NCBI RefSeq assembly: GCF_018613155.1
Contig: NZ_JAGGQU010000012.1
Coordinates: 34,559-98,558, forward strand
Reading direction: 5' to 3'
Length of the DNA: 64,000 nt
Source: Bacillus sp. ISL-55
GTDB lineage: Bacteria; Bacillota; Bacilli; Bacillales; Cytobacillaceae
Under the pieces are notes generated by a model that worked only from the letters and a program-made list of their open reading frames with translations, ran no database searches and was not told the DNA's origin. The position numbers were made by a program, and so were the translations under genes. This document shows positions 49,806 to 51,618 of this stretch, in pieces; positions within the stretch are counted from its first letter, which is position 1, and each line of letters starts with the position of its first letter.

Positions 49806-50777
49806 TTACTTCAATTTTTCCAGTTCTTCGATTGTCGCAAGAATGTCTTCGTCTGTTAGTGGTGCGAAGCCTGTTTCAGCTGCAACATCCTGGGCGTTTT
49901 CCATTGTGTAGATTGCGTAATCAAGTACTTGTGCTTTCTCTTTTGCGTTATTGGCATTCAAGTATGTGAAAACCGGTCTTGTGAATGGTCCGTACTTTCC
50001 GTCTTCCTTGATTGTTTCCAGTGAAGGCTCAACAGGTCCGTTACCGAAATCCACACTTACTGCATCCAATTTATCTTTGTTGTTCGCATAATAACCGTAG
50101 CCGAAGAATCCGATTCCGTTCTTATCCTTGGAAACAAGATCAACCAGCGTAGAGTAATCCTGCTGCAGATTGATGCCTTCAACCAGGTCTTTTTCTTCTA
50201 AAATATTTTCAAACATGAATTCGTATGTTCCATGGTTTTCATTCGGTCCATATGTGTTGATCTCTTCATCCGGGAAGTCAGGGCGTACATCAGACCATTT
50301 CTTCTTGCCGCCTTCAGCCAGGAAGATATCGATGACTTCTTCTTTCGTCAGTTCCTTCGCCCATTCATTGTCTTTATTGATGACAATCGTCAAGCCATCC
50401 AAAGCGACCTTCATTTCTTTTACATCGATGCCAAGCTCTTCAGCTTTTGCCTTTTCTTCGTCTTTGATCTGGCGAGATGCATCGTTATAGTCCGTTCCAT
50501 TTTCAACGAGGAATTTCTTGAAACCAGCCGAAGTTCCTGAGCGGCTTACTTCCACAGAAACATCTTCCTGCTTGCCCATATAGTTCTCAGCCATTTTTGC
50601 CATGAACGGGTAAACAGTGCCGGAGCCATCGATCACAACGCTGCCTTCAAGTTGAGTTTCAGTTTCATTAGAACCATTGGTTGCTTCTGCGTTACTTTCA
50701 CCATCTGAACAAGCCGTTCCGAAAGCCATTACACCAGCAAGCATAGTAAACATCGCTAACTTTTTAAAACTCTTCAT
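49806..50777 (-). CDS. pstS: Phosphate ABC transporter substrate-binding lipoprotein
   Basis: 323 residues. Lipobox FGTAC (about residue 23). Phosphate-contact motifs are VVIDGSGTVYPFM, VSRSGTSAGFKKF and a NENHGTYEFM segment. It captures phosphate for PstCAB, whose genes are not adjacent: a terminator follows directly. A Pho box lies upstream, indicating PhoP control under phosphate limitation. Confidence 0.92.
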   Translation of the reverse strand: MKSFKKLAMFTMLAGVMAFGTACSDGESNAEATNGSNETETQLEGSVVIDGSGTVYPFMAKMAENYMGKQEDVSVEVSRSGTSAGFKKFLVENGTDYNDASRQIKDEEKAKAEELGIDVKEMKVALDGLTIVINKDNEWAKELTKEEVIDIFLAEGGKKKWSDVRPDFPDEEINTYGPNENHGTYEFMFENILEEKDLVEGINLQQDYSTLVDLVSKDKNGIGFFGYGYYANNKDKLDAVSVDFGNGPVEPSLETIKEDGKYGPFTRPVFTYLNANNAKEKAQVLDYAIYTMENAQDVAAETGFAPLTDEDILATIEELEKLK

Positions 50778-50893: not shown

Positions 50894-50945
50894 TTCTTTC
50901 CTTGGAGGGTAAAGTTATATATAGTGAGGAAAAGGAGGTTTCGAG

Positions 50946-51494
50946 ATGGAATATGTATTAGAAACTACTGATCCTGAAAAATCACTAACCTTGGAAACGG
51001 CTATTCAGGGGAATCCGACGATGGTCGTATTTGTGCGCCATCTTGGCTGACCAGTCTGCCGGGCATATCTTACGCAGTTGCGTGAGCGAATAACTGAAGT
51101 CGAAGCTGCAGGTTACCAGGTTGTTGCGGTTGCCCCGTCAAAGGGTTCTTTTATCAAGCAATTCATTGACCAGTTTGGGCCTTTTCCTTTTCCGATTTTA
51201 GGAGATCCTTCGCGAAAAGCGTATCGCGGCATGGGACATAAAACGATGCCGAAGTGGAAGCTGCTGACGAAAGCCGGTTTCGGTTTCATTACCGGTCAAG
51301 TCAAAGATTTTATTCCTAAAAATGAGAAGCAAAAGGAATTCGTCTTGAAATCGATGAAGTCACAGGACGTCTACATCCAGGGAGGAACCTGGCTCTATTC
51401 TGCCGACGGCAAACTCTTATGGAAGCATATCGATGAATCACCCGAGGATCACGCAAAAATTGATGAAGTCTTGCAGCAAATGAAAAAACGCTGA
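50946..51494 (+). CDS. Peroxiredoxin-like protein, probable selenoprotein (in-frame TGA)
   Basis: AAGGAGGTTTCGAG precedes ATG. The frame runs 34 codons to TGA at 51048-51050, then continues open to 51494: 182 residues if the TGA is read. Flanks read VVFVRHLG-U-PVCRAYLTQLRE, exactly the GCxxCR active-site position of PRX-like2 (AhpC/TSA_2) proteins, so the TGA replaces the first redox cysteine to give U-x-x-C. Downstream GSFIKQFIDQFGPFPFPILGD and GGTWLYSADGKLLWKH are normal for the family. A nonsense mutation is the alternative. Confidence 0.75.
51048..51086 (+). promoter_or_regulatory. Candidate bacterial SECIS element
   Basis: TGA at 51048-51050; 7-bp hairpin CTTACGC-AGTT-GCGTGAG (one T-G wobble) at 51069-51086. 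The loop starts 25 bases after the TGA and has G in its second position, both within the published bacterial SECIS model. Confidence 0.55.
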
Positions 51495-51522
51495 TCAGCT
51501 TAACTCGCGATCAGCGTTTCTT
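51487..51522. terminator. Shared terminator
   Basis: AACGCTGATC / GATCAGCGTT perfect stem between convergent frames, followed by TTCTTCTTTT. Confidence 0.8.
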
Positions 51523-51618
51523 CTTTTCATCTTTATCGGAAACTTGCTCAAATAACTGTGAAATATAACCTTTTAATTCAAATCCCTCATCATTCATGAA
51601 TTCCTTAATTTGTTTCAT
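51511..51618 (-). CDS. Small 35-residue protein
   Basis: GGAGGT eight bases before ATG; MKQIKEFMNDEGFELKGYIS then a lysine-rich tail ending in the shared terminator. The excellent ribosome site makes it credible; function unknown. Confidence 0.55.
   Translation of the reverse strand: MKQIKEFMNDEGFELKGYISQLFEQVSDKDEKKKR

Follow-up and report, generated by a model that had tools for sequence, protein, structure and literature searches.

A probable selenocysteine-containing peroxiredoxin-like2 protein of Bacillus sp. ISL-55 and its Bacillales relatives

The window analysed here, a stretch of 64,000 nucleotides from Bacillus sp. ISL-55, contains on its plus strand a gene (50946..51494) that almost certainly encodes a true selenoprotein, a stand-alone Prx-like2 thiol oxidoreductase in which SelB, aided by a hairpin in the message, would decode UGA 51048 as selenocysteine (Sec). 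From the UGA, the machinery, the RNA signal and the family, all recognised by comparison, and from a predicted fold, we infer both Sec insertion and enzyme activity. The best reading of the sequence is that of a bacterial Sec-containing Prx-like2 protein, a counterpart of eukaryotic SelU.

The gene (Prx-like2, AhpC/TSA) spans 182 codons from ATG 50946 to a terminal TGA (51492-51494). An in-frame TGA at codon 35 (51048..51050, plus strand) lies in the context FVRHLG-U-PVCRAYL, where U is the putative Sec, and the partner cysteine of the U-x-x-C motif, Cys38 (TGC, 51057..51059, plus strand), is conserved as Cys in all 62 distinct sequences. An earlier note on this DNA had described a frame open on both sides of the TGA, with no other lesion and a strong ribosome site. 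Indeed, codons 1-182 contain no further stop, and a Shine-Dalgarno sequence AGGAGG (50933..50938, plus strand) lies 7 nt 5' of the ATG. The same note had expected a start to be called at 51078 and the active site to be missed, and the mechanical ORF call is TTG 51078-51494, 138 aa; gene callers that stop at UGA would thus lose the active site. In relatives, 45 of 61 named loci have a narrow Shine-Dalgarno pattern before an in-frame start that lies 5' of the TGA. Among ten loci inspected, nine have GGTGG, GGCGG, GAGGTG or AGGTG just 5' of the start, and the start of L109 is preceded by a weaker AAGGTAGGG.

At the other end of the gene, a hairpin overlapping the stop codon and followed by a T-rich tail (51486..51519, plus strand) is probably an intrinsic terminator, which would agree with termination of the transcript at the end of the read-through frame; the region 51480-51530 folds at -19.9 kcal/mol. 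The terminator scan, which accepts loops of 3-8 only, gave a single terminator-like site, inside the gene, and the hairpin at 51486-51519 is absent from its output. The promoter scan gave no sites (1.8 in shuffles), and a search of 801 bases against Rfam, up to E 1, matched only ohsC, which lies on the opposite strand and scores 23.9 bits (gathering score 50). Neighbouring genes are not conserved, the best neighbour cluster being common to 14 of 61 loci, and give no pointer to a substrate. The divergent neighbour in the window (49806-50777, minus strand) appears by eye to encode a PstS-type phosphate-binding lipoprotein, and a related gene lies upstream in 5 of the 61 loci.

The nearest named relatives of the window's genome are Mesobacillus. 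Among named genomes, Bacillus sp. ISL-37 (95%) and Mesobacillus boroniphilus (93%) match best. A match at E<=1e-20 was obtained in 51 of the 193 genomes of the GTDB family, and one at E<=1e-8 in 72 of 397 genomes of the order, a set that overlaps the family set. Whether homologues carry Cys or TGA at codon 35 had been named beforehand as a check, and the answer was uniform: TGA stands there in all 70 loci read (69 distinct sites; L001, L020-L048, L063-L082 and L083-L102, where L083 and L070 are one gene), and the aligned part is otherwise free of stops. Twenty of these loci stem from the order search; the other 50 account for all 51 family matches except G117, a fragment (query 54-143) with its TGA at a different codon. 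In the stop tally of order matches without a locus, each lists TGA except the remnant in G076 (query 137-173), and G363 has a TAG in addition to TGA. Among named genomes, whose loci overlap the set of 70, TGA is at codon 35 in 61 of 65 loci, the other four (L164-L167) being fragments that do not reach the codon. Fragments of the window gene were thus seen in relatives at L164-L167, G076:C1:452399-452509 and G117:C143:65871-66137, suggesting that the gene is lost rather than changed to a Cys form.

In the order, where 72 of 397 genomes match and the loci read all have TGA, we saw no close Cys form. A search of 299 order genomes with the NCBIfam model NF040769 yielded matches at E<=1e-8 in 103, all below the cut-off; full-length TGA-bearing matches score 65-101 bits, and most of those below about 51 bits have no stop. 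Seven stop-free order proteins from this search all have CPYC or CPVC, and one of them, L222, is from the same genus as the window gene. Against A1, a profile built from a 15-member alignment, these seven score 14-33 bits, compared with 325 bits for the window gene, and they are members of other, distant Prx-like subfamilies. The absence of Cys forms is therefore limited to the subfamily of the window gene. Across the phylum 10 of 398 genomes match (E<=1e-6): the window's genome, the same-genus G085 and eight that are distant. At the site, six of these eight have TGA and the other two (L173, L174) Cys. Homologues on Nocardia and Mycolicibacterium plasmids also have Cys at the site. Phage records gave no match, and none of the 11 IMG/VR stretches that fit a pattern encodes a relative.

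The part of the gene after the UGA is maintained as protein, as judged from dN/dS in 11 of 15 same-genus loci compared with the window gene: downstream of the UGA the ratio is 0.035-0.088 in the 10 computable loci (dS was saturated for L032). Upstream of the UGA dN was below dS in the 10 computable loci (dS saturated for L029).

Bacterial SECIS elements are modelled as a hairpin just after the UGA, with a G in the apical loop at a set distance. The hairpin in the window (51069..51086, plus strand, within the coding region) agrees with this model and lies where the earlier note had placed it: a 7-bp stem starts 18 nt after the TGA, and the loop, AGTT (51076-51079), contains a G and is 25 nt after. 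The 69 sites give 62 distinct 48-nt sequences. Every one of them has the loop AGTT, 25 nt after the UGA, and the seven stem pairs, counted from the outermost inwards, are formed in 60, 62, 61, 60, 62, 62 and 62 of them. Two pairs vary in their bases. Pair 25-36 is A-T in 37 sequences, G-C in 17, G-T in 6 and unpaired in 2, and pair 24-37 is T-G in 31, C-G in 18, T-A in 12 and unpaired in 1; in a tree that relates the 61 named loci and excludes the hairpin codons, they switch state at least 12 and at least 13 times, respectively. Contingency tests that ignore kinship gave p=1.2e-5 and 0.004 for the two pairs. At the first of them, Thr or Ala at codon 43 goes with synonymous CGT or CGC at codon 46 (Fisher p=1.2e-5, not tree-corrected). 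A tree-aware independent-pairs test was not significant, with just 3 and 4 supported pairs. In addition, Gln44 is CAG and Leu45 is TTG in 61 of 61 loci each, the sole single-codon columns among 14 conserved near the site, while elsewhere in these genes Gln is encoded by CAG in 50% of cases and Leu by TTG in 14%. Taken alone, the hairpin region of the window has an unexceptional folding energy (z-score 0.01), so the evidence for the hairpin is comparative. On that evidence the hairpin is conserved as RNA.

The proposal had been made dependent on selA, selB, selD and a tRNA-Sec with a UCA anticodon, and all four were found in the genome assembly (4.52 Mb, 69 contigs, 99.99% complete). selA scores 563 bits and selB 364.5 bits (cut-off 242), a tRNA-Sec with anticodon TCA is present, and selD, which adjoins selA on contig C1, is itself a TGA/Sec frame with the motif KAGUGCK. 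In the family selA is over the cut-off in 172 of 193 genomes, and all 51 carriers of the window gene have a selA match at E<=1.7e-116. The gene occurs in 51 of the 172 genomes with over-cut-off selA versus none of the 21 without (Fisher p=0.0013, uncorrected for kinship). Of 17 formate-dehydrogenase-type matches in the window's genome, two (G000:C65:422-2443, minus strand, and G000:C69:134575-135327, plus strand) contain one TGA each and are possibly further selenoproteins.

The earlier note had assigned the protein to the PRX-like2 family and put the TGA at the first active-site cysteine, and both assignments are supported. The best domain is PF13911 AhpC-TSA_2 (58 bits, cut-off 27); PF00578 (50 bits, cut-off 26) and Redoxin are likewise over their cut-offs. 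Against PDB sequences (E<=0.001) profile A1 has three matches: 2cx3, a BCP-type thiol peroxidase (3.4e-5), 9us9, a prostamide/prostaglandin F synthase (4.6e-5, over positions 8-177 of 180), and 2l5o, a putative thioredoxin (3.1e-4). In SelU, Sec is at the first Cys of CxxC; in the alignment of A1 with 9us9, Sec falls on the first Cys of GCVVC. The AlphaFold2 model (mean pLDDT 87.6, pTM 0.85, weakest at residues 101-120) is a confident prediction of a peroxiredoxin fold, with residue 35 directly before helix 36-47, and in a viral library Foldseek matches the model best to a peroxiredoxin from a phage (E 5.1e-5, TM 0.70).

In the mechanism that we propose, SelB and Sec-tRNA(Sec) would decode UGA 51048 with the aid of the hairpin at 51069-51086. 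The selenolate at residue 35 would then most likely attack a peroxide or a disulfide, Cys38 would resolve the oxidised Sec35 as a selenenylsulfide, and thioredoxin would recycle the enzyme from this form. The protein is thus probably a thioredoxin-dependent peroxide or disulfide reductase.

Several other explanations of the TGA were weighed. That it is a nonsense mutation, and the gene a pseudogene, might be suggested by the plain fact that a standard stop interrupts the ORF and by the fragmentary copies in some relatives; given the identical TGA in each of the 69 distinct sites, the strong protein constraint 3' of it and the constraint at the RNA level in the hairpin, the probability of this is negligible. 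Equally negligible is the chance that the true start is TTG 51078, where the mechanical ORF call begins, and that the part upstream is untranslated: AGGAGG precedes ATG 50946, relatives have Shine-Dalgarno-like sites before their own upstream starts, all 15 aligned sequences share F29, R31, H32, G34, P36, C38 and R39, and the short form would be without the active site. Pseudogene, late start and also sequencing error were all rejected because the TGA is shared across homologues.

The UGA could also be recoded without selenium, either as another amino acid or to give a pair of truncated and readthrough products. UGA readthrough is known in general and so offers a precedent, and Sec at residue 35 is itself deduced from sequence; nevertheless we consider such recoding extremely unlikely, as alignment places the UGA at the catalytic Cys of a redox family, a SECIS-like hairpin follows at a constant distance, selA is present in all 51 family carriers, and selD of the same genome has a Sec-type TGA. 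A further possibility accepts the selenoprotein and supposes that the letters of the hairpin are kept by codon or protein constraint. The ordinary folding energy and the non-significant independent-pairs test speak for it, but a single codon is used, among the 14 conserved columns, at just the two codons across the loop, and the choice of Thr or Ala at codon 43 is linked to a synonymous choice at codon 46; we judge this very unlikely. Decoding of UGA 51048 as Sec with the aid of the hairpin is thus the reading that we retain.

Other Prx-like frames with an internal TGA came up in these searches. In the window's own genome, L002:1414-2748 (G000:C11, 215907-217241) is a second probable selenoprotein, absent from the catalogues consulted, in which a Prx domain (PF00578, 107 bits), with its TGA in FLRGTWUPNCR, is fused to a methyl-accepting chemotaxis signalling domain (PF00015, 90 bits). 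Its Prx part matches in 14 of 193 family genomes, with TGA at the site in 13 of the 14, the other being a fragment without the site. In ten of the 14 the alignment spans residues 1-442 of 444 or more, and L062 is a distant match (33%). The fusion could be a selenium-based peroxide chemoreceptor; the word 'chemotaxis' has no occurrences in two selenoprotein reviews (PMC13188914, PMC9312934). L062 itself, with L172, L175, L176 and L177, forms another Prx-like TGA group with the motif U-P-F-C, followed in four of the five (not L176) by H-M-M-Q-L or H-M-T-Q-L. In two other genomes of the phylum, two Prx-like frames lie side by side and both have TGA at the Sec position (L170 and L179 in G806; L171 and L178 in G938). 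In Thermomicrobium roseum the record for L216 (NC_011961.1, 544547-546359) gives a hypothetical protein of 42 aa that stops at the TGA. Beyond this codon the frame runs on into a Prx-like protein with U-P-Y-C; with its hairpin CTGGCGCAGTTGCGCCAG, it is probably a missed selenoprotein.

It is possible, although we would put the chance somewhat below even, that the window gene belongs to a Sec-only bacterial Prx-like2 lineage, the counterpart of SelU, which extends through many Bacillales genera, has no Cys form of its own, holds its SECIS in the codons of the active-site helix and, in the genus of the window gene, exists beside the chemotaxis-fused Sec peroxiredoxin. If this is true, Bacilli would run an unrecognised selenium-based layer of peroxide detoxification and sensing. 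The window protein would provide a probable selenium-dependent redox enzyme in culturable bacilli and a bacterial model for SelU/PRXL2. How gene callers that stop at UGA drop the active site can be seen, in a relative, from the T. roseum record.

Sec in Prx-like folds is well known, and the question is how the window protein relates to what has been described. The 2026 review, in the sections available, counts 119 selenoprotein families and subfamilies (PMC13188914), and a 2006 table credits Bacillales with three selenoproteins in three families (PMC1794560). A 2016 ISME paper noted a few Sec-using organisms without known selenoproteins, most likely because of incomplete genomes, and considered new ones possible (PMC5029168). 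Tables of selenoproteins list a peroxiredoxin-like family protein (AhpC/TSA, cd02970/pfam13911) with the motif UxxS (PMC13188914, PMC9312934); it has the same domain as the window protein, whereas the family of the window protein has UxxC in 62 of 62 distinct sequences, and the available parts of these two papers contain no PF13911/cd02970 entry with UxxC. Prx-like selenoproteins with UxxC or UxxU in PF00578 are a known kind (PMC13188914). The PF00578 thiol:disulfide oxidoreductases share UxxC with the window protein, which also passes PF00578; they differ in that its best domain is PF13911, a distinction drawn from the description of that group rather than from its sequences. The TxxU motif of typical Sec peroxiredoxins was also not found: residue -3 is His in nearly all 70 motifs, Tyr in L081 and never Thr.

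The best NCBIfam match is NF040769, SelL-related redox protein, which all 15 A1 members match; the window protein reaches 96 bits, below the curated cut-off of 120, none of the 299 order genomes is over it, and we found no NCBIfam entry for the exact subfamily. The accessible text of eight papers (PMC13188914, PMC12013277, PMC9312934, PMC5029168, PMC1794560, PMC2398784, PMC5322559 and PMC3473315) contains no description of this Bacillales protein. T. roseum L216 resembles it in having RGLR-U-P-Y-C with TGA and a shared hairpin core, CGCAGTTGCG, and differs in its low identity to the window protein (34% over 80 residues). The claim of a new selenoprotein in the earlier note thus stands as far as we found no catalogue or NCBIfam entry, but UxxC Prx-like proteins and SelU are kinds already known. 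As the tables seen contain no UxxC entry for PF13911/cd02970 and the nearest NCBIfam model stays below its cut-off, we place the window protein in a known kind, as a new member and perhaps as a new subfamily. The Sec form of Prx-like2 in eukaryotes is SelU, and prostamide/PGF synthase has been called SelU3 (PMC3473315); in the portions available, SelU is treated as eukaryotic (PMC3473315, PMC2398784) and the function of SelU1 is called unclear (PMC3473315). SelU/PRXL2 (SelU1-3) and the window protein share a Prx-like2 domain with Sec members, and profile A1 matches 9us9. SelU, however, is treated as eukaryotic and has mammalian Cys forms, whereas the window gene has no close Cys form seen in its order and carries an in-frame hairpin of the bacterial type.
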